Positions 13,750 through 25,413 of a DNA stretch of 64,000 nt are shown in pieces. The translations under genes were made by a program, and so were the position numbers. Where the stretch lies: the NCBI RefSeq assembly GCF_001999965.1, contig NZ_CP019646.1:2170001-2234000 (forward strand), written 5' to 3'. Within the stretch, counting starts at the first letter, position 1, and each line of letters opens with the position of its first letter. The notes beneath the pieces were generated by a model. It was not told the DNA's origin. It made no database searches and was given only the letters and a program-made list of their open reading frames with translations. This DNA comes from Limihaloglobus sulfuriphilus. Lineage in GTDB: Bacteria > Planctomycetota > Phycisphaerae > Sedimentisphaerales > Sedimentisphaeraceae.

Positions 13750-15086
13750 GGCTCCTCACATAAATTTGTGCGGAAAAATTTAATATAGCATATGTTAACA
13801 CTTGTTATAATGATGATTTAGAACAATGTTATAGCAAGGGAAAACATATGCTACTTAAAAGAATACTAAAAAAGACATTAAAAGTCAAGAGACATAAAGT
13901 GGTAAAAGTCGATTATAGTGACAATCAGCTCAACTTTTATTTAGACGTTCACAAACGTCGGCGGCTGCCTTGCGGCACCTGTCAGACGTTTGCTCCGCAA
14001 CGTGACCGGCTTCCGCAACGGCAGATTAAGCATGTTCCGTTATGGGGCATACCAGTGCTGCTGCATTACCGTCCGGTTCGTGTCAGCTGTCCCAAATGCG
14101 GTGGCCCGCGGGTTGAGGACATACCCTTTACCTCAGGTAAATCACGTATGACAAACGGATTGGTCTGGACCTTGAGCAGTATGGCGAAATTGCTGCCCTG
14201 GCAGACGGTTTCTCAGATGTTTAATGTCAGCTGGAATACGGTTCAGTCTGCGGTAAAGCAGGCAGTTGACTACGGCATGAAACACAGGGATACAGGAAAG
14301 GTCATTTATATTGGCATTGACGAAGTATCCCGCCGCAAGGGTCATACGTATATGACGGTGGTGTACGACCTGGAAGAAAAACGCATTTTATGGAGCGGCC
14401 AGGGCCGGAAAAAAGAGACGCTGGAGGCGTTTTTCAAAGAACATGGAAATTCGTTAAAAGGCAGTTTAAAAGCGGTTTGCTGTGATATGTGGCAATCGTA
14501 CATTGATGTTGTAAAAGAGCATGTTGACGAGGATGTTGTTCTGGTTTTCGATAAATTTCATATCGTACAACATTTGAATCAGGCTGTCGATGAGGTACGC
14601 AAACAGGAAGCTATCACGCTCAAAAAAGACAACCCCGAACTGCTTAAAAAAACGCGATATATCTGGCTGAAGAATCCTGAAAACCTTACAGACAAACAGC
14701 GTGCACGTCTGGGGTATCTGGAGAAGCTGAATCTTAAAGTCAACAGGGCTTATTTATTGAAAGAATCCTTTCGTGATTTTTGGGATTACCGCTACCCTGC
14801 AGCTGCCAAAAAATATCTTGCAAAGTGGTTCTGGTGGGCCACCCACAGCAGGCTCGAACCATTACGTGATTTTGCCTGGATGCTCAGAAAACATCAGCAA
14901 GGTATCATAAATTATTTCAAATGCCGAGTCACCAATGGAGTCACCGAAGGTATGAACAATAAAGTTAAAACAATAGTCAAAAGATGTTATGGATTCAGGA
15001 CAATCCCGACGCTGCAGTTAGCCTTATATCACTGCCTTGGAAAGCTGCCTGAACCTGAAAATATGCACAAATTTGTGTGAGGAGCC
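13750..15086 (+). mobile_element. ISL3-family insertion sequence, copy 2 (no target duplication)
   Basis: 1337 bp, the same length as copy 1 and nearly identical, but in inverted orientation. The ends begin GGCTCCTCACA. The flanks do not match: the last eight bases on the left are AACCATAA and the first eight on the right are TATTATTA. The missing 5' part of the URO-D-like gene on the left and unrelated sequence on the right point to a deletion or rearrangement starting at this copy. Confidence 0.95.
13848..15080 (+). CDS. ISL3-family transposase
   Basis: A 410-aa protein, nearly identical to the one at 5636-6868, with the same zinc-binding Cys pairs, helix-turn-helix and DDE motifs; it differs at a few positions near residues 48 and 70-73. 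The frame is intact and ends inside the right terminal repeat. With two intact copies only 6.8 kb apart in opposite orientation, the enzyme could act on both. Confidence 0.95.
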   Translation: MLLKRILKKTLKVKRHKVVKVDYSDNQLNFYLDVHKRRRLPCGTCQTFAPQRDRLPQRQIKHVPLWGIPVLLHYRPVRVSCPKCGGPRVEDIPFTSGKSRMTNGLVWTLSSMAKLLPWQTVSQMFNVSWNTVQSAVKQAVDYGMKHRDTGKVIYIGIDEVSRRKGHTYMTVVYDLEEKRILWSGQGRKKETLEAFFKEHGNSLKGSLKAVCCDMWQSYIDVVKEHVDEDVVLVFDKFHIVQHLNQAVDEVRKQEAITLKKDNPELLKKTRYIWLKNPENLTDKQRARLGYLEKLNLKVNRAYLLKESFRDFWDYRYPAAAKKYLAKWFWWATHSRLEPLRDFAWMLRKHQQGIINYFKCRVTNGVTEGMNNKVKTIVKRCYGFRTIPTLQLALYHCLGKLPEPENMHKFV

Positions 15087-15378: not shown

Positions 15379-16434
15379 TTGAAGCAGCAGCAGTTTCATG
15401 ACATAGTAACCGGCAGGGACAAGAGCGTAAAGGCCGCGGTTTTGCGGTTCTTGATGCTCATAAGCTCCCGCTTTTACCTGCTTTGCGTCAATATACGCAA
15501 CCTGTTATATGACTGGAAAGTCCTGCGTGTGGAAAACGCCGGCAAGCCGGTGATCAGTATCGGCAACATCACCGCCGGCGGCACGGGCAAGTCTCCAACG
15601 GTAATTTCGGTTTGTAAATACCTGACGGATAAAGGACTTAAGACCGCCGTCCTGACCCGCGGCTACAAGGGCACTGCCCAGACCGCTGATGAGCCGGAAA
15701 TGATCGCCCAGAGATGCCGCGGCACTATGGTGATTGTAAACAAAGACCGCGTTGCCGGCGCAAAAAAGGCTATCGAAAAGGGAGCTGACGTGCTTATAGC
15801 CGACGATGCCTTCCAGCACAGACGGCTTGGCAGGGACCTGGATATCCTCTGCATAGACGCTACCGAGCCTTTCGGATACGAGATGCCGCTGCCTGCGGGG
15901 CTTCTACGCGAGCCGCTGGCACAGCTCAGACGCGCACATGCCGCGGTGATCACACGCGGCGACCAGGTGCCGGCGTACAACCTGACGCGGATTACATCAG
16001 TTCTGCAGGAATATAACCCTGATATATGTGTCGCCGAGTCGCACCACCGCCCTGTCGAGGTTGTCTATGCCGACGGCAGTAACCACGACGCCAACGCACT
16101 CAAGGCCGCCGGCGTTGTTATCTTCTGCGGTATCGGCAATCCCGAATCGTTCAAAAAGACAGTAGAAGCCTGCGGAGCGGATATCAAGGCGTTTGAGTTT
16201 TTTGACGACCATCACGCCTACTCGGCGGCCGACCTGCGGCGTATTGCCGAGAAACAAAGCGAAACCGGTGCGGACATTATACTTACCACGGAAAAAGACT
16301 GGGTGAAAATTGCCCGCATAGCTGAGAACCCGCTTCCGGATAAAACGAGCGGATATCTAAAAATTGAGATCGAAATCACCGAAGGCAAAGAACTGCTGCT
16401 GGGTAAAATCGACGAAATAACAGGCAGCAAATGA
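15379..16434 (+). CDS. lpxK: tetraacyldisaccharide 4'-kinase
   Basis: LpxK (351 aa) phosphorylates the 4' position of the lipid A disaccharide precursor at the inner membrane, the sixth step of lipid A synthesis. The N terminus has a hydrophobic membrane-associating helix (about 20-45). A P-loop, ISIGNITAGGTGKSP, lies at 59-73; TRGYKG follows, then the DDAFQHRRL segment typical of LpxK, and the C-terminal TTEKDWVK motif. The start is TTG at 15379, 11 bases after GAGGA; no ATG fits better. Its stop overlaps the next gene by ATGA. Its presence shows that the organism makes lipid A-based LPS. Confidence 0.95.
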   Translation: MKQQQFHDIVTGRDKSVKAAVLRFLMLISSRFYLLCVNIRNLLYDWKVLRVENAGKPVISIGNITAGGTGKSPTVISVCKYLTDKGLKTAVLTRGYKGTAQTADEPEMIAQRCRGTMVIVNKDRVAGAKKAIEKGADVLIADDAFQHRRLGRDLDILCIDATEPFGYEMPLPAGLLREPLAQLRRAHAAVITRGDQVPAYNLTRITSVLQEYNPDICVAESHHRPVEVVYADGSNHDANALKAAGVVIFCGIGNPESFKKTVEACGADIKAFEFFDDHHAYSAADLRRIAEKQSETGADIILTTEKDWVKIARIAENPLPDKTSGYLKIEIEITEGKELLLGKIDEITGSK

Positions 16435-17717
16435 CAGAGACAAAATCAAAAGCGGTCTTTCTGGATAAATACGGCACACTAATCCAGGATCAGAGCCTGG
16501 GACAAGCAGCAGAGCAGATCAAACTCCTGCCCGGAGCGGCGCGGGCGGTATATGAGATGAAACAGCTCGGCTACAAGGCCTTCATTGCCAGCAATGAACC
16601 CGCGGCAGCCGCCGGCACGATCAGCATGGATCAGCTCGAAGAGCTCAACGCCAAATTGAGCGAGATACTCGCTAAGCAAAAGGCCGAACCCGACGGCATT
16701 TACTGCTGCCCGTTTGACCCTGATGCCGCGGTTGCGGAATACGCCCACAAAAGCAGGCTGAGAAAACCGGCTCCGGGTATGCTCCTCAAAGCCGCACAGG
16801 AACACGCCATTGACCTTGAAAACTCCTGGATGATAGGGGATTCTCTCGACGACATACGCGCCGGCATTGCGGCGGGCTGTAAAACGATACTTATCAGGCC
16901 GACTGCGAGAAAAACACCGCCTCCGCCAGACGGCACCGCGGCAGACTATGAAGCTGTAAACATAACCGAGGCATCGAATTATATAAAAATGCAAAACCGT
17001 AAAGAAAATATACAACAATCGCTTGAATTTGAAGACGGCAGCAGCGAAAGCAAAGAACCCGGCCGCCCCGCCGAAACAGCGGCTCCGGCATTGGCAGCGG
17101 AGAAACCAGCCGATACAGAGCAGGCTGTCAAGGAAAACGAGGTTATAGACGCTCAGGTAGCGTCGAATGTGGGCAAATGCCTTGAGAAAATGGGCAACTC
17201 CAGCAAGGGCAGGGACCTTCTGCTTAAAAGCTCGGGGCTGTTCGCATCCGAAGAACAGCGAAAACTCGAAGAGGCCAGACGCGTCAAAAGAGATGAGCAG
17301 GCCTCTGAGACAAAACCCGGGCCGCAAACAGCCGCGGACGAAACGCCGGCTCAGCCGCAGCAGCAAAAACCGGAGACTCCAGCCGCCCCGCCCCAGCCGG
17401 CTCCCGAGGCAAAACAGACCAGACCCGCGGCGCAGCAGCCGTCAGAGAAACACGCACAGCGAGACCTGCCGGAGACACCGCTGGAAGACGCAAACAAAAA
17501 ACCCGCCGCGACAAAAGATAAGCACGAGAACGATGCGGAGATATTCCAGTTCATTGCGGGCATATTCCAGGCGGCGGCGGTGCTGATGGGTATCGTAATG
17601 ATAATTACAATCATCATGCCGAACCTTACATCTTTCAGTGCGGCGGGACTTCTGGCAACGGCGATTGTTTCTCAGGTATTGAGCATAGCTTTTGCAAAGA
17701 TTAAACCATCACATTAG
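16431..17717 (+). CDS. HAD-family protein with altered catalytic motif, disordered linker and membrane anchor
   Basis: Residues 1-185 resemble the HisB-N/GmhB (heptose bisphosphate phosphatase) branch of HAD enzymes: FLDKYGTLI, a SNEP segment (motif II), RKPAPGM (motif III Lys) and IGDSLDDIRAG (motif IV). Motif I normally reads DxDGT; here the second Asp is Tyr (codon TAC), and the Cys residues that bind zinc in GmhB are absent. The usual acid/base residue is therefore missing. Residues about 190-370 are low-complexity Ala/Pro/Glu/Gln/Lys sequence, probably disordered, and the last 55 residues form two hydrophobic helices (FIAGIFQAAAVLMGIVMIIT and a second). Overlaps lpxK by ATGA. Possible role: a membrane-tethered heptose or sugar phosphatase with changed chemistry, or an inactive scaffold. 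Inference only. Confidence 0.8.
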   Translation: MTETKSKAVFLDKYGTLIQDQSLGQAAEQIKLLPGAARAVYEMKQLGYKAFIASNEPAAAAGTISMDQLEELNAKLSEILAKQKAEPDGIYCCPFDPDAAVAEYAHKSRLRKPAPGMLLKAAQEHAIDLENSWMIGDSLDDIRAGIAAGCKTILIRPTARKTPPPPDGTAADYEAVNITEASNYIKMQNRKENIQQSLEFEDGSSESKEPGRPAETAAPALAAEKPADTEQAVKENEVIDAQVASNVGKCLEKMGNSSKGRDLLLKSSGLFASEEQRKLEEARRVKRDEQASETKPGPQTAADETPAQPQQQKPETPAAPPQPAPEAKQTRPAAQQPSEKHAQRDLPETPLEDANKKPAATKDKHENDAEIFQFIAGIFQAAAVLMGIVMIITIIMPNLTSFSAAGLLATAIVSQVLSIAFAKIKPSH

Positions 17718-17727
17718 CGGATAGAGC

Positions 17728-18681
17728 ATGAGAGTTTTAACCATAACCGACGGCAAACCAGGGCACTTCAACCAGGCCAGAGCACTTTGCAGTATCATGG
17801 GCTGGCAGAGCAGTGAGGCGGTTGCCGGCTACCCCTGCAAAGCCGCCAAAGGGCTGACATACCTGCTCGATGGGCTCGGGATATACCGCGAATCGGCTTT
17901 CCGGCTCGAATACGAAGACGCCGCGTATAACGCCGTTGTCGCCGTCGGCTCGGCATCGTACTACCCGGCAAAGGTCATCTCACGCCGTCTGGACATACCG
18001 GCAATCGCCCTGATGTACCCTCGCGGTTTCAGGAATGATTTTGCCCATATACTCTGCCCGGCCTACGACAACCCGCCCGAAGCGGACAATATAACGCCTC
18101 TGCCGGTAACGCTTTCGAGCCGCGGGGCGGATTTCTTCATGGACGCGGTGGATGATTTTAAGGGCAAGACCGACATCACCGGCCCGGCGGTAAGCGTTAT
18201 AATCGGCGGCGGCAACAAATACGGCGACGTATGCCCGCGGCAGATACAAACCCAGCTCGAACAGATATTTGAGCTGACCGGCGAGTCTAAGCACTGGGTT
18301 ACGACATCCCGGCGGACAAGCGGCGAGGTTGAGCGGATCGTGGAAAGCTTTCCGTTCGATTACAAGCTCATATACTCTAAGGAGCAGTACAACCCGATAC
18401 CGGCGTTTATCGCCCTGAGCGAGCGGATATTCGTTACCAGCGATTCGGCGTCTATGATCAGCGAGTGCGTAAGCGAGGGAAGGGCAAAAATCGAGATACT
18501 GAAAAACAAACCCAAACGCAAGAGCAAATTTGACCGCTTTCTGGCAGGTCTTGTGGAAAATGCAAACGCGCATATATTCGACGGCAGCCTTGGCGACGCC
18601 GGCAAAAAGGTTTCCGTGAAAGAAATTGTCGCAGCGGCACTGGAGAAATCCGGCTTCAAACGCGGCGGAGGCAGCGCGTAA
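17728..18681 (+). CDS. ELM1-like (COG3660) GT-B-fold protein
   Basis: A 317-aa protein of the bacterial ELM1-like family, named after the plant mitochondrial fission protein. Features: the N-terminal ITDGKPGHFNQ, then VVAVGSASYYPAK, the core VSVIIGGGNKYGD, TTSRRT, and VTSDSASMISECVSEG, which resembles the nucleotide-sugar site of GT-B glycosyltransferases. Bacterial members occur in LPS gene clusters; the molecular role is not established. It lies 10 bases after the HAD gene and overlaps the next gene (TAATG), so it belongs to the lpxK operon. A sugar transfer to the LPS core is a reasonable guess. Confidence 0.85.
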   Translation: MRVLTITDGKPGHFNQARALCSIMGWQSSEAVAGYPCKAAKGLTYLLDGLGIYRESAFRLEYEDAAYNAVVAVGSASYYPAKVISRRLDIPAIALMYPRGFRNDFAHILCPAYDNPPEADNITPLPVTLSSRGADFFMDAVDDFKGKTDITGPAVSVIIGGGNKYGDVCPRQIQTQLEQIFELTGESKHWVTTSRRTSGEVERIVESFPFDYKLIYSKEQYNPIPAFIALSERIFVTSDSASMISECVSEGRAKIEILKNKPKRKSKFDRFLAGLVENANAHIFDGSLGDAGKKVSVKEIVAAALEKSGFKRGGGSA

Positions 18682-19772
18682 TGAAGATAGTCCAGCTACT
18701 ACCCGAGCTCAATCAGGGCGGCGTGGAACGCGGCACGGTAGAGCTAAGCCGCGAACTCGTAAAACGCGGCCACCAGAGCATTGTGATCTCCGCCGGCGGC
18801 AAACTTGCCCGGCAGATAACCGCTGACGGCGGCGAACATATCACACACGATGTGTGCAGCAAGAACCCGCTGACCGCCCTGCCGCGGATACTCAAGCTAA
18901 AAAAGATTCTCCGCCGGTTAAGCCCCGATATTGTCCACGCTCGCAGCCGCGTGCCGGCATGGATGTGCGTATTCGCCCTCAAAGGGCTGGATATCCCCTT
19001 TGTTACCACCGTACACGGCTTCAACAGTGTCAACTGCTACAGCCGGGTGATGCTTCGGGGTGAAAGGGTGATTTACGGCAGTACGTCGATCAAGGAATAT
19101 GTACTTGAGAACTACCATTTTGACAGCTCAAAACTCCGCTATGTGCCGCGAGGCATCGACATGGAATACTTCGATCCGGCCAAACTGAATCATAAATTCA
19201 TTGATTCTTTCAAAGAAGAACACAGCTTAAACGGAAGATATATAATATCCATTGTCGGCAGAATTACCGGCTGGAAGGGCCACCCAGACTTTATCCAAGC
19301 CGTTGGCCGCATCCACCAGGAAAACCCAAATGTATTAGGGCTTATTGTAGGCCGTACAGCGGATAACAAAACAGAATACTATGATCAACTCAAACAGCAG
19401 GCCGCTGCGTTCGGTGATGATGCTTTCTGTTTTACAGGCCCTCAATCACAAGTTCGTGAGATATACTCACTTAGCAATATAGTCATATCCGCCGCTTCTA
19501 CAAAACCCGAGACATTCGGGCGCATCGCTGCCGAGGCAATGTCCATGAATACACCGGTGGTTGCAAGCTCTCACGGCGGCTCACTTGACATAATAAAAGA
19601 GCCCGAAGCCGGAATGTTCTACCCGCCGGGAAACTCGGATCAGCTTTATAAAAAAATCAAGCTGGCAATGAACCATAAATTCGGCGACATGCGGAAACAT
19701 ATAAACGACCACTTCAGTCTTGACATCATGGTAGAAAAAGAACTGGCGGTGTATAAGGAGCTGTTGGGATGA
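18681..19772 (+). CDS. glycosyltransferase family 4
   Basis: A 363-aa GT-B glycosyltransferase. The N-terminal acceptor domain starts with MKIVQLLPELNQGGVERGT, the usual GT4 opening with the GG loop, and has VTTVHGFNS. The C-terminal donor domain has IVGRITGWKGHPDFIQA and STKPETFGRIAAEAMSMNTP, which contains the EX7E signature, followed by VASSHGG. Probably transfers a hexose or heptose to the LPS core from a nucleotide sugar on the cytoplasmic side. Coupled to the gene before (TAATG) and after (ATGA). Confidence 0.9.
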   Translation: MKIVQLLPELNQGGVERGTVELSRELVKRGHQSIVISAGGKLARQITADGGEHITHDVCSKNPLTALPRILKLKKILRRLSPDIVHARSRVPAWMCVFALKGLDIPFVTTVHGFNSVNCYSRVMLRGERVIYGSTSIKEYVLENYHFDSSKLRYVPRGIDMEYFDPAKLNHKFIDSFKEEHSLNGRYIISIVGRITGWKGHPDFIQAVGRIHQENPNVLGLIVGRTADNKTEYYDQLKQQAAAFGDDAFCFTGPQSQVREIYSLSNIVISAASTKPETFGRIAAEAMSMNTPVVASSHGGSLDIIKEPEAGMFYPPGNSDQLYKKIKLAMNHKFGDMRKHINDHFSLDIMVEKELAVYKELLG

Positions 19773-20467
19773 CGGAATTGAAGCTGTCAAAACTCGAACC
19801 CTTTGCCGTCGGCGGAAGACGGGAATGCTATGTCCACCCATCCGACGCATCCAAATGTGTAAAGGTGCTAAGGACTGATAAAAATGTGTCAGCAAGAAGA
19901 AAAAAACTTTTCGTTCCATCTGTTCTGCGCCGCAGATACGACAACAACGAAGATGAAAGGCGAGTACTAAATAAACTTGAAAAACGTATCGGAAAAGGTA
20001 TGCAGCTCCATATACCCTTATGCTATGGATATGAACCGACAGATTTAGGCCCCGGGCTTGTACTGGATCTTGTACGAGATACAGACGGAAAGATAAGCCG
20101 CTCGCTCAGAGAGCATTTTTATCAGAATCTGCATCCTCTTGAGTTCAAAGACGGTTTTGACGAGTTGACTAGATTTTTATGCCAGCATAACATTATAACT
20201 CGTAACCTGCTTGATCATAATCTTGTCGCTTCAAAACAAGCTGACGGCAGCTGGCAAATCTACATCATCGATGGATTCGGCGACCCTGCCCTGTTGCCAA
20301 TCGCCCAGTGGAGCAGAACAATGGGAAGAATGAAGATAAAACGAATTTCAAGAAGAGCTTGGGCAAGGTTTCAGGTTTTCTATGAAACAAGAAGGCAAAA
20401 CGGTGCAGCTATTCACCATATGCGGGATGGACAAACCTGGAGCCCCGGAGTACTCAGACACAGATAG
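19769..20467 (+). CDS. YrbL-family kinase-like protein
   Basis: A 232-aa protein of the PhoP-regulatory-network YrbL family (PF10707). Signs: PFAVGGRRECYVHPSDASK, the nucleotide-loop-like start with HP; a Lys in CVKVLR; YEPTDLGPGLVLDLVRD; the catalytic-loop-like RNLLDHNLV; and YIIDGFGDPALLPIAQW, which aligns with the metal-binding DFG of kinases. The catalytic-loop Asp of HRD kinases is Asn here. It overlaps the GT4 gene by ATGA and ends the operon, facing the convergent gene at 20471. The fold is related to LPS core kinases (Kdo and heptose kinases), so phosphorylation of a core sugar is possible but not shown. Confidence 0.8.
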   Translation: MTELKLSKLEPFAVGGRRECYVHPSDASKCVKVLRTDKNVSARRKKLFVPSVLRRRYDNNEDERRVLNKLEKRIGKGMQLHIPLCYGYEPTDLGPGLVLDLVRDTDGKISRSLREHFYQNLHPLEFKDGFDELTRFLCQHNIITRNLLDHNLVASKQADGSWQIYIIDGFGDPALLPIAQWSRTMGRMKIKRISRRAWARFQVFYETRRQNGAAIHHMRDGQTWSPGVLRHR

Positions 20468-20470
20468 GCA

Positions 20471-21523
20471 CTACTTTGCAATATCGGTACCTGCTTTTAA
20501 GTCCTGATAAATGGCTTCTAATTGGGGTATTACAGCTTTTTCATAATATTTGTTACGATATAGCTCCAATGCCTTGCCTGCTTTGGAAAGAGCCGCTTCT
20601 GGATTGGTAGCCGCTTCGATCATGGCCTTTGATAACTGCTCAACGGAACCCGTTTCAACAAGATACGCATCGTCTTCGGTCAAAATCTGAGAAGGCCCCC
20701 GGGTAAGTGTGGAAATAAGCGGGATTCCACGCGACATAGCTTCAAGCACAACAATCCCAAACGACTCACTTAAAGATGGTAGAACAAAAATATCCGCCTC
20801 ATCCAATGCTGAGCAAACATCGTCAATCCACACTCCAAGCCGAACTTTATCATCAAGTTTCAGCTGACCGCTCAAGTCCCGCAGCCGCCGCAAGTCTGCA
20901 CCGCTTCCGCCGACAGTCAGCCTGGCATCAACTCGGGCATCTATAACGTTCCTGAACGCTTTGAGCAAAATGTGAAACCCTTTTTCCTCTACATATCTGC
21001 CGTAAGATATAAAATTTATCGGTTTAGAAAACTTGTCTGAAACGATTTTGACCGGTAAAAGCCTCGAAAAGTTCGGAACCACTGTTACGCTATTTATAGG
21101 CCAACCGTTCGAAAGAGCGTACTCTCTTTGGTCTTGTGTTGTTGCAATCAAGACATCCACATACCTATAACGACTCAGTTTTACATAATTATGCAGTTTT
21201 GATACAACCGGTATATTTAAGCCAACAGCCGCCCTGCCCGCGTGCCAGGCTGCCCGTTTAAGCTGTGTATGTACAACCTCGGCCTTGAACTCTTTGAGCA
21301 TTTTCCGTATGACCAGGGGAGTGATAAAATCCCACTCGCCTAACGCATTTACCGTCCTTAGTGTAATGTTTGGAATACCCAGAAGCAGTTCTTTCTTTAT
21401 AAACCCTTTATGACATATCGCAAGTATATCGTGACCTCTCGCCGCAAGAGCAAGAGAAGTATCAACAAAGGACCTTTCAGCCCCGCCAAATCCACGTCCA
21501 AGCATTACCTGTGCTATACGCAT
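20471..21523 (-). CDS. glycosyltransferase family 4
   Basis: A 350-aa GT-B enzyme. It starts MRIAQVMLGRGFGGAERSF; the donor domain has ISYGRYVEEKGFHILLKAF, VGGSGADLRRL and SLSESFGIVVLEAMSRGIP with the EX7E motif. GAGG lies 7 bases before the ATG. It converges on the YrbL gene ending at 20467 and lies 258 bases downstream of a second YrbL-like gene on the same strand. Likely adds a sugar to LPS core or another envelope glycan; donor and acceptor are not visible. Confidence 0.9.
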   Translation of the reverse strand: MRIAQVMLGRGFGGAERSFVDTSLALAARGHDILAICHKGFIKKELLLGIPNITLRTVNALGEWDFITPLVIRKMLKEFKAEVVHTQLKRAAWHAGRAAVGLNIPVVSKLHNYVKLSRYRYVDVLIATTQDQREYALSNGWPINSVTVVPNFSRLLPVKIVSDKFSKPINFISYGRYVEEKGFHILLKAFRNVIDARVDARLTVGGSGADLRRLRDLSGQLKLDDKVRLGVWIDDVCSALDEADIFVLPSLSESFGIVVLEAMSRGIPLISTLTRGPSQILTEDDAYLVETGSVEQLSKAMIEAATNPEAALSKAGKALELYRNKYYEKAVIPQLEAIYQDLKAGTDIAK

Positions 21524-21781
21524 TTCAACCTCTATTTAATCGTGTTAAGTATTTATCGTCATAATTTTATATAAACTCACATCCTCGATTAGGCATAACA
21601 TGTTTCCCTTCACACCTTCTGATATTTACTACCGCAACTTCAATTCTCCTCACAGATCCGGACTTGTAAATCTCTCAAATCCAGCACTTCGGTTTAACTC
21701 TTACAATTATTTTACCTCTTAAAACCGGTATGTCATTGATTCCTCTCTTCACCATATTTGGTTAAGATTCAAACGGTTTAT

Positions 21782-22423
21782 CTATCGCACTAGCGGGTCT
21801 TGCTCATACTCTCCACGCAGAGCAACTTGTATCCGCCGTCGTATTTTTTTGATTCGTTTGCGTTTGGAATAAGTATTGTAGTTTGGCCAGAACCTGCGTA
21901 AGGAAACGGTCGATCTACCGCCGATGCCATCAATAATCACAAAACGGCTGTTCTGTTCATCCCATACAAGATTCTGCAGATCAAAATCTCGTACTATTAT
22001 GGGGCTATCCTTTAGCCAGTTAAGTAATTCATCAATGGCTCTTTGATGCATAGCGTTGTATTTCTTATTCTTAATCATATCTCCCAAAGTCCATGCTAAA
22101 GTTCCGTCTTTTTTAAGAATGGCTTTTACTGTAATACCGGGCCCTAAATCTGTATGAACGAGTCCGCTTACCTTCTGAATGTAAACTGGAGTCTGGTCTG
22201 CTTCATAGATTACTAATTGTTCTGTGATCTCATTTACAATGGAGCTATAGCGAGGCAGTCGTTGAAACTTAATTGCAATCGGGTGCCGTTTCTTTTTCCG
22301 CTCGAAGAATGTTTTGTGCCATACTTTTATCAGTAGGTTTTTGTTTTCAGGGTGCTGAAAAACCAACTTCTCCAAGCCTGATGCGATGGGTTTTTCGTCT
22401 GATAATTTGTAAGTTATATCCAT
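21782..22423 (-). CDS. YrbL-like kinase-fold protein
   Basis: A 213-aa protein similar in plan to the YrbL protein at 19769-20467: PIASGLEKLVFQHPENK, a Lys in LLIKVW, LVHTDLGPGITVKAI, the loop IVRDFDLQNLVWD, and FVIIDGIGGRST. Unlike the other copy, the catalytic loop keeps the Asp and the Asn five residues on (D-x4-N), and the metal-binding DG follows, so it could be an active kinase. The C terminus is very basic (KRKRIKKIRRRIQ), which would suit binding to acidic glycolipid or the membrane surface. It is upstream of the GT4 gene at 20471-21523 on the same strand. Confidence 0.7.
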   Translation of the reverse strand: MDITYKLSDEKPIASGLEKLVFQHPENKNLLIKVWHKTFFERKKKRHPIAIKFQRLPRYSSIVNEITEQLVIYEADQTPVYIQKVSGLVHTDLGPGITVKAILKKDGTLAWTLGDMIKNKKYNAMHQRAIDELLNWLKDSPIIVRDFDLQNLVWDEQNSRFVIIDGIGGRSTVSLRRFWPNYNTYSKRKRIKKIRRRIQVALRGEYEQDPLVR

Positions 22424-22885: not shown

Positions 22886-24193
22886 ATGAATATAGCGGTA
22901 ACAGGCATTGGCTATGTAGGTCTTGTAGCAGCGGCATGTCTTTCTGACGGCGGCCACCATGTCATATGCGTTGATAAGGACCGTAAAAAGATTGATGGCC
23001 TTAAAAAGAACATAATACCCATTTATGAGCCAGGTCTTACAGAATTAGTACAAAGAAACAGCAAAGCCCAAAGGCTCTGTTTTACTACCGATTTGAGCTA
23101 TGGAGTTCAAAACAGCGATATAATCATAGTTGGTGTCGGCACACCCAGCTCTCCCGACGGATCAGCAGATATTTCTGCCGTGCTTGATGTATCCAGAAAC
23201 ATTGCTCAAATCATAAAAAAACCAAAGGTTATTGTCACCAAAAGCACTGTTCCGGTAGGAACTTACAAAATAATAACGGATCTTGTATCCTCTATTACAG
23301 ATGTCCCCTTTCATTATGTCAGCAACCCTGAATTTCTTAAAGAGGGTTCCGCGGTGGAGGATTTTCTCAAACCTGACAGGGTTATAATAGGCACCAGCTC
23401 CGATTATGCCCGCCAGGCTATGCAGCAAGTCTATGCCCCATTCATGCGTAAATCCAATAGGATTATATTTATGGAACCGGCAAGTGCTGAAATGAGCAAA
23501 TATGCATCTAACGCAATGCTGGCAACCCGAATATCGTTTATGAATGAACTTTCAGCTCTTTGCGATACATTCGGGGCGAATATCGAAATGGTTCGAAAGG
23601 GGATCGGCTCTGACAGCAGAATCGGCAACTCGTTTCTTTTTGCCGGCGTGGGCTTCGGCGGCAGCTGTTTCCCCAAAGACGTCAGAGCCTTGATACACAT
23701 GGGAGATAAGCAAAACTGCCCGATGTCAATAGCGCAGTCAGTGCTTGATGCAAATTATAAGCAGCATGAAAGGTTTGCCGGTAAGATCCTTGATTTTTTC
23801 AAAGGCAAAGAGAATAAAACCACCCTGGCAGTCTGGGGCCTGGCCTTTAAAGCTAAGACAGACGATATCCGTGAATCGCCGGCTATCTGGTGTATTGAAA
23901 AGTTTCTGGATGCTGGATTTAAGATTAAAGCATATGATCCTGAAGCTATGCCCGCCGCTAAGGAAAAATTTGGAAGCCGGATTCAACTGGCAGAATATGA
24001 TTATGATGTACTGGAATCTGCCGATGCCCTGGTTGTGTTCACTGATTGGCAGGAATTCAGAGGGCCGGACTTCGAAACTATCAAAAAAACACTCTCTGAG
24101 CCGCTGATATTCGATGGACGAAACCTTTATGAGCCAGAGTACCTTGCAAAACTGGGATTTAAATATTTTTCAATCGGAAGGCCCCAACTGTAA
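22886..24193 (+). CDS. ugd: UDP-glucose 6-dehydrogenase
   Basis: Oxidises UDP-glucose to UDP-glucuronate with two NAD+, supplying acidic sugar for envelope polysaccharide. 435 aa, normal length. The N-terminal Rossmann motif is VTGIGYVGLVAAACL; SKSTVPVGT-type and NPEFLKEGSAVEDF segments follow; the catalytic Cys is in GFGGSCFPKDVRA near residue 260; and the C-terminal UDP-binding domain has WGLAFKAKTDDIRESPA. GGAAA lies before the ATG. It converges with the GT2 gene with two bases between stops. Confidence 0.97.
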   Translation: MNIAVTGIGYVGLVAAACLSDGGHHVICVDKDRKKIDGLKKNIIPIYEPGLTELVQRNSKAQRLCFTTDLSYGVQNSDIIIVGVGTPSSPDGSADISAVLDVSRNIAQIIKKPKVIVTKSTVPVGTYKIITDLVSSITDVPFHYVSNPEFLKEGSAVEDFLKPDRVIIGTSSDYARQAMQQVYAPFMRKSNRIIFMEPASAEMSKYASNAMLATRISFMNELSALCDTFGANIEMVRKGIGSDSRIGNSFLFAGVGFGGSCFPKDVRALIHMGDKQNCPMSIAQSVLDANYKQHERFAGKILDFFKGKENKTTLAVWGLAFKAKTDDIRESPAIWCIEKFLDAGFKIKAYDPEAMPAAKEKFGSRIQLAEYDYDVLESADALVVFTDWQEFRGPDFETIKKTLSEPLIFDGRNLYEPEYLAKLGFKYFSIGRPQL

Positions 24194-24195
24194 GT

Positions 24196-25413
24196 CTATC
24201 TGTTAAGCCTTTCAATATCAAACGCTCCGTTTAGTCTGTAGCGCACTCCCCGCCAGCAGATTGTGCGGCCGAAAGACGAAATCAGTATCAAAGCCAGCAT
24301 GAGTGCCAGCCACAGGGGGTTGAGCAGAAATTCCCACATTGAGAGCTGTCTGACGTAGCCGCCGTAGGGACCGAGAACAAACTCAAATGTCCTGCGGCGC
24401 ATGTATGTTCGGTAAATCAGGCTCGCCCAGTGTATAACCGCCGCGGCTGCAAAGAGTTTCGCGTCGTTTTCTCCCATGGCAAACCTGACGGCGGCAGCAA
24501 CCGGCAGTATCCAGACGCCGAGAAAATGGTTCAACAGGCAAAACAGCCCCCAGAGCCACATACGCAGATACGCCACTCGGGTAATCAGCATCTGCCGGCG
24601 GCCGAACTCAAAGAGCTGCCCCCAGCTCATATCCTCAAACGTAACCGTAAAACACCGCGGCATAAGGCGTATTTTGTAGCCGGCATTCCGCACAGCCGCC
24701 GAGAGGGTCAAATCATCGCTGATGCTTTTCTGCCAAAGATTTGCGACATTAAGCTGTTCAAAAAGCTCTTTGCGTATCGCCATTGAGCCGCCCCAGACCT
24801 GCGTGGTATATTTGCTCTTGCCCATAATCTGTGCCGCGGCGGCGTTCATGGAAGACAGCGCCAGATTAGAGAACCGCCGACGTGCCGGTATAAAATAACG
24901 GTAACCCGTGGAAACGCCGTATTTACTATTTCGCAGCGGGTACATCAAATGCGCCAGCCACAGCCGGCTGACCCGTGTATCCGAATCGGCGAATGCGTAG
25001 ATTTCCGTATCGTGGGGAGCGAACCTGAGCGAGTGCAGGAGGTTATGGTTTTTCTGGCTGTAACCCTTTGAAATACCCGCCACCAGGACCTTTGCAAAGC
25101 CGGCAGGCATATCATCTCGGCAGCGGTCAATTATTCTCTGCAAAGATTCGTACGCGGGATCGGACTCGCTCTCAACGACAAAATGAATATTATAATTCTC
25201 ATAGTCAAGCCGCATCAGCGAGAGGATATTCCTGAAAAATCCCATATCAAGCCCTTTGCAGGGGACAGTCAAAAGCACCTTCGGCCGAAACTCCTTGAAA
25301 TCACGGTTATATCTTTTAACAAAATCCTTGTGGTTGGAGGTGATCAGCAGAAAATACAAAAACTGGCTGACTGCCGCAATACACAAAAAAACTAAAGCAA
25401 GATCAAAAAACAT
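24196..25413 (-). CDS. membrane glycosyltransferase family 2 (ceramide-glucosyltransferase-like)
   Basis: A 405-aa processive-type GT2/GT21 enzyme. An N-terminal transmembrane helix (about 3-25) is followed by a cytoplasmic GT-A domain with VLLTVPCKGLD, the DxD-type FADSDTRV, WGGSMAIRKE, SISDDLTLSAAV (catalytic Asp) and FGRRQMLITRVAY in place of the QXXRW motif. C-terminal hydrophobic helices (about 285-385) complete it. Related enzymes transfer glucose or N-acetylhexosamine to a lipid such as ceramide or hopanoid precursors. The lipid acceptor here is unknown. No strong ribosome site is visible before its ATG. Confidence 0.85.
   Translation of the reverse strand: MFFDLALVFLCIAAVSQFLYFLLITSNHKDFVKRYNRDFKEFRPKVLLTVPCKGLDMGFFRNILSLMRLDYENYNIHFVVESESDPAYESLQRIIDRCRDDMPAGFAKVLVAGISKGYSQKNHNLLHSLRFAPHDTEIYAFADSDTRVSRLWLAHLMYPLRNSKYGVSTGYRYFIPARRRFSNLALSSMNAAAAQIMGKSKYTTQVWGGSMAIRKELFEQLNVANLWQKSISDDLTLSAAVRNAGYKIRLMPRCFTVTFEDMSWGQLFEFGRRQMLITRVAYLRMWLWGLFCLLNHFLGVWILPVAAAVRFAMGENDAKLFAAAAVIHWASLIYRTYMRRRTFEFVLGPYGGYVRQLSMWEFLLNPLWLALMLALILISSFGRTICWRGVRYRLNGAFDIERLNR

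Follow-up and report, generated by a model that had tools for sequence, protein, structure and literature searches.

What does a YrbL protein do when its gene lies among those for lipopolysaccharide (LPS) assembly? YrbL is the product of a PhoP-regulated gene, and our literature search found no paper that assigns it a function. The question is raised by a 64,000-nucleotide stretch of Limihaloglobus sulfuriphilus DNA (contig NZ_CP019646.1, positions 2,170,001 to 2,234,000; hereafter the window), in which a first-pass annotation had described two facing pairs of glycosyltransferase and YrbL-like genes within a lipid A/LPS locus. The four open reading frames concerned, which we call GT4-1, YrbL1, GT4-2 and YrbL2, are present as described (Table 1), Pfam confirms their YrbL and GT4 domains, and LpxK, a GmhB-type HAD protein and an ELM1-family protein are encoded immediately upstream, as expected of such a locus. 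In the likeliest reading, YrbL1 is a kinase that acts on the LPS core once a KdoT-like and a GT4 enzyme have done so, and it belongs to an unusual clade. Its relatives are found repeatedly in gene clusters of this type, in bacteria that are only distantly related, which makes a part for YrbL1 in completing the LPS core likely, although its catalytic site is altered.

Both proteins belong to family PF10707 (YrbL-PhoP_reg; 116.3 bits for YrbL1 and 121.8 bits for YrbL2, cut-off 31.5) and are its only members in the 3.87-Mb window genome. By sequence they are not equivalogs of Escherichia coli YrbL, scoring 110.9 and 52.3 bits against NCBIfam NF007671, below its cut-off of 227, and neither matches the Kdo/WaaP LPS kinase family PF06293, PF10707 being the only Pfam match at E<=0.01. 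Few Planctomycetota genomes (6 of 392) encode a PF10707 protein above the cut-off; counts by class were 4 of 397 genomes in one class and 3 of 397 in that of the window. In a tree of YrbL sequences, built without the catalytic-loop columns and with long deep branches whose order is unsure, YrbL1 falls in a clade of eleven sequences (support 96/93) that are 42-52% identical and come from Verrucomicrobia and Planctomycetes. A first, wide alignment of YrbL offered no stretch conserved enough for scanning the genome collection; a scan with a four-member alignment of the clade yielded ten more loci, mostly from Verrucomicrobia, so that the sample is biased towards the clade, and phyla beyond it were sampled unevenly. 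Plasmid and phage searches added only the YrbL of E. coli and Salmonella and two alphaproteobacterial relatives.

Four kinds of gene recur around YrbL in this clade, encoding a polysaccharide deacetylase, a methyltransferase with an N-terminal Zn-ribbon, a Kdo/WaaP-like kinase and a protein that we call X. The Kdo/WaaP-like kinase, a second kinase that stands beside YrbL in most clusters, matches APH/Kdo and PF06293 and is of the canonical type (HLDLNLGN...IDFEF). Protein X has about 430 residues and no Pfam family, with QLRG..DDVDLL near its N-terminus and a Walker A motif, MGCDGAGKTSL, near its C-terminus; its N-terminus looks nucleotidyltransferase-like and its C-terminus P-loop kinase-like (L036:6195-7409 (-), and also L031, L037, L039, L042 and L043). 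A GT4-1 orthologue (34-38% identical) and an ELM1 gene lie in the YrbL locus in L029, L031, L036, L038, L042, L043 and L044 (L036 and L038 are near-identical and were counted once), and L036 and L042 also hold a lipid A acyltransferase. We note that a further methyltransferase and Kdo/WaaP-like kinase pair occurs in genome G686 (L068, contig C340), on a short contig on which no YrbL was seen.

The strength of this linkage can be gauged from GT4-1, which is matched only once at E<1e-20 in every planctomycete genome where it occurs. GT4-1 and YrbL abut in the window and lie 1.2 kb apart in G358 (8.9 Mb) and 4.3 kb apart in G314 (3.3 Mb). Linkage in two of five non-window genomes would be expected by chance with a probability of about 4e-5, at about 0.002 per genome for a distance within 5 kb, a figure that serves only as a guide among related genomes. 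Similarly, a full-length match to the methyltransferase (E<1e-100) occurs in 3 of the 4 sampled genomes that encode a YrbL of the YrbL1 clade, the window genome being the exception, versus 0 of 388 others (about 4e-7 by Fisher's test, again a guide only for related genomes); weaker matches (E<1e-40) occur in two further genomes. The first-pass annotation had linked YrbL-like proteins to sugar transferases. This holds for the clade of YrbL1, whose members in distant phyla accompany a GT4 orthologue, ELM1 and genes for lipid A, but it is not supported for YrbL at large: YrbL is not beside LPS sugar transferases in E. coli, Falsirhodobacter, S. fredii or L051, and in Falsirhodobacter it sits among sugar catabolism genes. 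Outside the clade, neighbourhoods that support the link are limited to L033, where YrbL adjoins a Kdo-type kinase, an ABC transporter and an LPS glycosyltransferase of family GT25. LPS loci of Arcobacter are also reported to hold YrbL-PhoP_reg genes (PMC6477937).

The genes next to YrbL1 point to a particular part of the LPS. KdoT of Acinetobacter baumannii, an ELM1 protein that depends on an SRRT motif, adds a third 3-deoxy-D-manno-oct-2-ulosonic acid (Kdo); GnaT, a GT4 enzyme, then attaches N-acetylglucosaminuronic acid (GlcNAcA), and the same locus encodes a polysaccharide deacetylase (PMC12856342, PMC10936431). The window ELM1 protein has both the PF06258 domain and the SRRT motif that mark the KdoT type; SRRT is present in all five ELM1 proteins checked, this one and four relatives, and both window glycosyltransferases keep the E-x7-E motif. 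As the window genome encodes WaaA, it probably makes Kdo. Because of the kinship of ELM1 with KdoT, the kept SRRT and E-x7-E motifs and the presence of WaaA, we read ELM1 and GT4-1 as a KdoT-GnaT-like pair, and the UDP-sugar dehydrogenase encoded nearby might provide a uronic-acid donor. The GT4-1 and YrbL1 genes share four bases (ATGA), and AGGAG lies a few bases 5' of the YrbL1 start, so the two are probably co-translated.

Both YrbL proteins are predicted to adopt a two-lobed, protein-kinase-like fold with conserved nucleotide-site residues. Their models (pLDDT, the predicted local distance difference test score, 85.8 for YrbL1 and 81.9 for YrbL2) match protein kinases (Foldseek probability 1.00), and the best VIA matches have Z 11.2 with a root-mean-square deviation of 4.9 over 167 residues for YrbL1 and Z 12.9 with 3.8 over 177 residues for YrbL2. 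K32, E63, N151 and D168 are conserved, keeping the beta3 Lys, alphaC Glu, loop Asn and DFG-type Asp. A sequence-profile search of solved structures gave weak kinase matches that align the YrbL loop on HRD...N; the MRG15 chromodomain, which took its two top rows, was dismissed as a chance match. The catalytic loops differ as had been noted, with Asn (N146) at the HRD Asp position in YrbL1 (TRNLLDHN) and Asp (D146), as in a canonical active kinase, in YrbL2 (VRDFDLQN). Across the YrbL1 clade that position is occupied by N, A, S, G or H, whereas an Asp three residues on (D149 in YrbL1) is present in 11 of 11 sequences. The HRD Asp is kept in YrbL2, S. fredii, Falsirhodobacter and L033, a gammaproteobacterial relative (L045) has the conventional loop TRDLLPHN, and E. 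coli YrbL (TMSLKPQN) has neither Asp; the tree calls for two or more changes at the HRD position and for one or more of the +3 Asp. The loop thus suggests, for the YrbL1 clade, either a catalytic Asp that has moved or a pseudokinase. That one of the two window proteins is active and the other regulatory, as had been proposed from Asn versus Asp, does not follow, since E. coli YrbL also lacks the HRD Asp and the +3 Asp is invariant in the YrbL1 clade.

Are the two glycosyltransferase-YrbL pairs copies of one? The pairs do converge (20467/20471), the ends of YrbL1 and GT4-2 being 3 bp apart, but the second is loose, with 258 bp of 35% GC between YrbL2 and GT4-2 on one strand, and duplication is ruled out by the low identity between the two YrbL proteins (27%) and between the two glycosyltransferases (25%) together with the separate clades of YrbL1 and YrbL2. 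Sister genomes keep a GT4-1 orthologue (61-62% identical, the 62% one belonging to a sister genus), and in one of them a GT4-2 orthologue (59%) is convergent to and touches GT4-1 with no YrbL between; in the other, the slot of YrbL1 holds a different gene that looks glycosyltransferase-like by eye (L035:9285-10115 (+)). None of the 58 other genomes in our sample of relatives encodes a PF10707 protein above the cut-off. Since the sister glycosyltransferases are kept without YrbL in this way, either the kinases joined an existing glycosyltransferase pair or they were lost many times, and addition would be the simpler course. Base composition (GC 0.55 from LpxK to ELM1, 0.45 in YrbL1, 0.41 in YrbL2) does not decide on their arrival, because GT4-2, a long-standing gene of the family, has 0.45 as well.

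Taken together, these observations lead us to propose that ELM1, like its Acinetobacter relative KdoT, would extend Kdo-lipid A by a Kdo, that GT4-1 would then attach the next sugar, as GnaT does, and that YrbL1, made from the same message, would spend ATP on modifying either this Kdo or the sugar. The modification would most likely be a phosphorylation, as performed by KdkA and WaaP, with the catalytic Asp shifted three residues along the loop in this clade; YrbL1 thus probably phosphorylates the Kdo-proximal LPS core. We give an even chance to the whole of this reading, in which ELM1, GT4-1 and YrbL1 form an LPS inner-core assembly unit with YrbL1 as its ATP-using core modifier. Several findings weigh against it. 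GT4-1 is unlinked to YrbL in G082, G686 and G415, and in sister genomes the glycosyltransferases occur without YrbL, so YrbL is dispensable for their reactions. Searches of the window genome found neither the methyltransferase nor protein X nor the second kinase of the clade, and YrbL1 is therefore parted from its usual partners there. GT4-1 was likened to GnaT by its GT4 domains and E-x7-E motif only; YrbL1 lacks the HRD Asp of a canonical active kinase; and neither KdkA nor WaaP is among the structure matches listed, although this last point decides nothing.

The missing HRD Asp opens two other views of YrbL1. The varied residues at this position across the clade, and the canonical HLDLNLGN kinase encoded alongside in most clusters, would suit a pseudokinase that, with ATP or a nucleotide sugar bound, serves GT4-1 or ELM1 as a regulator or scaffold and transfers nothing itself, phosphorylation being left to the Kdo/WaaP-like kinase or, in the window genome, to YrbL2; yet the retained beta3 Lys, alphaC Glu, loop Asn and DFG-type Asp, and a D149 that is invariant in all 11 sequences, are unexpected in a decayed site, and we consider this view unlikely, if the strongest competitor for YrbL1. 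Alternatively, YrbL1 might carry out another ATP-dependent reaction, such as AMP transfer, with a sugar of the core or an enzyme of the envelope as its target, in the style of SelO or SidJ. SelO, an AMP-transferring protein of the same fold, has no HRD Asp and an Asp late in its loop (HGVMNTDN; Table 1 of PMC12599244), which resembles TRNLLDHN of YrbL1, but the likeness is limited to this short loop and no sequence relation to SelO is shown, making this the least probable of the views considered. Little more probable is that the YrbL proteins are protein kinases or envelope-stress regulators and their neighbours merely co-regulated: the Foldseek matches are protein kinases, and E. coli YrbL is PhoP-regulated and lies outside the LPS core loci, but repeated co-occurrence with dedicated methyltransferase, deacetylase and KdoT-like/GT4 genes argues for glycan assembly.

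YrbL2 stands apart as a protein of the kinase-like fold with a conventional loop, tied to GT4-2 by position alone, and the proposed YrbL2-GT4-2 pairing was seen in none of the three relatives examined. Independently of how YrbL1 is read, the adjacency comes close to an even chance of being accidental, with YrbL2 a functionally unrelated recent arrival in an AT-rich slot. The AT-rich gap, a sister genome with GT4-2 but no YrbL2, and YrbL2 relatives in S. fredii and Falsirhodobacter without such a glycosyltransferase favour accident, whereas the shared strand and order, and the small number of relatives examined, count against it. Acquired on its own, YrbL2 may act on the product of GT4-2 in the window genome, which is without the Kdo/WaaP-like kinase of related clusters.

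Other features surround these genes. An ISL3-family transposase gene (13848-15080) lies directly 5' of the LPS genes; the GmhB-type domain (ORF 16431-17717) is fused to a long Pro/Ala/Glu-rich low-complexity linker and a hydrophobic, membrane-like C-terminus, an architecture unusual for such an enzyme; and a gene for an HpnI-like glycosyltransferase (24196-25413 (-); TIGR03472 score under the cut-off) adjoins that for the UDP-sugar dehydrogenase.

Table 1 Features of the LPS locus, in window coordinates.
Feature	Coordinates	Strand	Evidence
LpxK, lipid A 4'-kinase (context)	15379..16434	+	PF02606, 268 bits
GmhB-type HAD phosphatase domain (context)	16431..17717	+	TIGR00213/HAD-SF-IIIA matches over residues 1-164
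ELM1-family protein, probable KdoT-like Kdo transferase	17728..18681	+	PF06258, 101 bits; SRRT at residues 194-197
GT4-1, GT-B glycosyltransferase	18681..19772	+	Glyco_transf_4 and Glycos_transf_1; E-x7-E motif ETFGRIAAE
YrbL1, protein-kinase-like, Planctomycetes/Verrucomicrobia clade	19769..20467	+	PF10707; tree; model
YrbL1 catalytic loop TRNLLDHN	20198..20221	+	N146 at HRD Asp position, invariant D149, N151
GT4-2, GT-B glycosyltransferase	20471..21523	-	Glyco_transf_4 and Glycos_transf_1; motif ESFGIVVLE
YrbL2, protein-kinase-like, canonical catalytic Asp	21782..22423	-	PF10707; model
YrbL2 catalytic loop VRDFDLQN	21971..21994	-	D146 and N151
UDP-sugar dehydrogenase	22886..24193	+	PF03721/PF00984/PF03720

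Gene order connects the YrbL1 clade with the transfer of Kdo and the assembly of lipid A, which offers YrbL a concrete substrate to test and draws attention to an unstudied route to the LPS core in Planctomycetes and Verrucomicrobia; a moved catalytic Asp, if true, would be an instructive case of kinase-fold enzymes changing their chemistry. We tentatively suggest, as a possibility less likely than not, that YrbL1 defines an LPS-core kinase-fold clade that has moved its catalytic Asp by three residues, or performs a non-phosphate transfer, and works alongside enzymes of the KdoT-like and GT4 types, encoded in a gene cluster that these phyla devote to modifying the core. Among known systems, E. 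coli YrbL shares PF10707, a kinase-like character, 27% identity with YrbL1 and the absent HRD Asp, but its gene neighbours npr and mtgA and its loop has no +3 Asp. KdkA, WaaP and WaaY (PF06293 and relatives) resemble the window proteins in their protein-kinase-like fold and LPS-core setting, and the second kinase of the clusters matches PF06293, whereas YrbL1 and YrbL2 match PF10707 only and YrbL1 is without the catalytic Asp. SelO and SidJ likewise replace the HRD Asp and keep other nucleotide-site residues, a resemblance and not a relation, for they have no detectable sequence relation to YrbL1 and differ in reaction and setting. The Arcobacter butzleri LPS locus is reported to have YrbL-PhoP_reg genes among its core genes (PMC6477937). 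The KdoT-GnaT system of Acinetobacter has no YrbL reported in its locus, but shares with the loci described here an ELM1 gene, a GT4 gene and a polysaccharide deacetylase gene in a core locus, and the SRRT motif (PMC12856342, PMC10936431).

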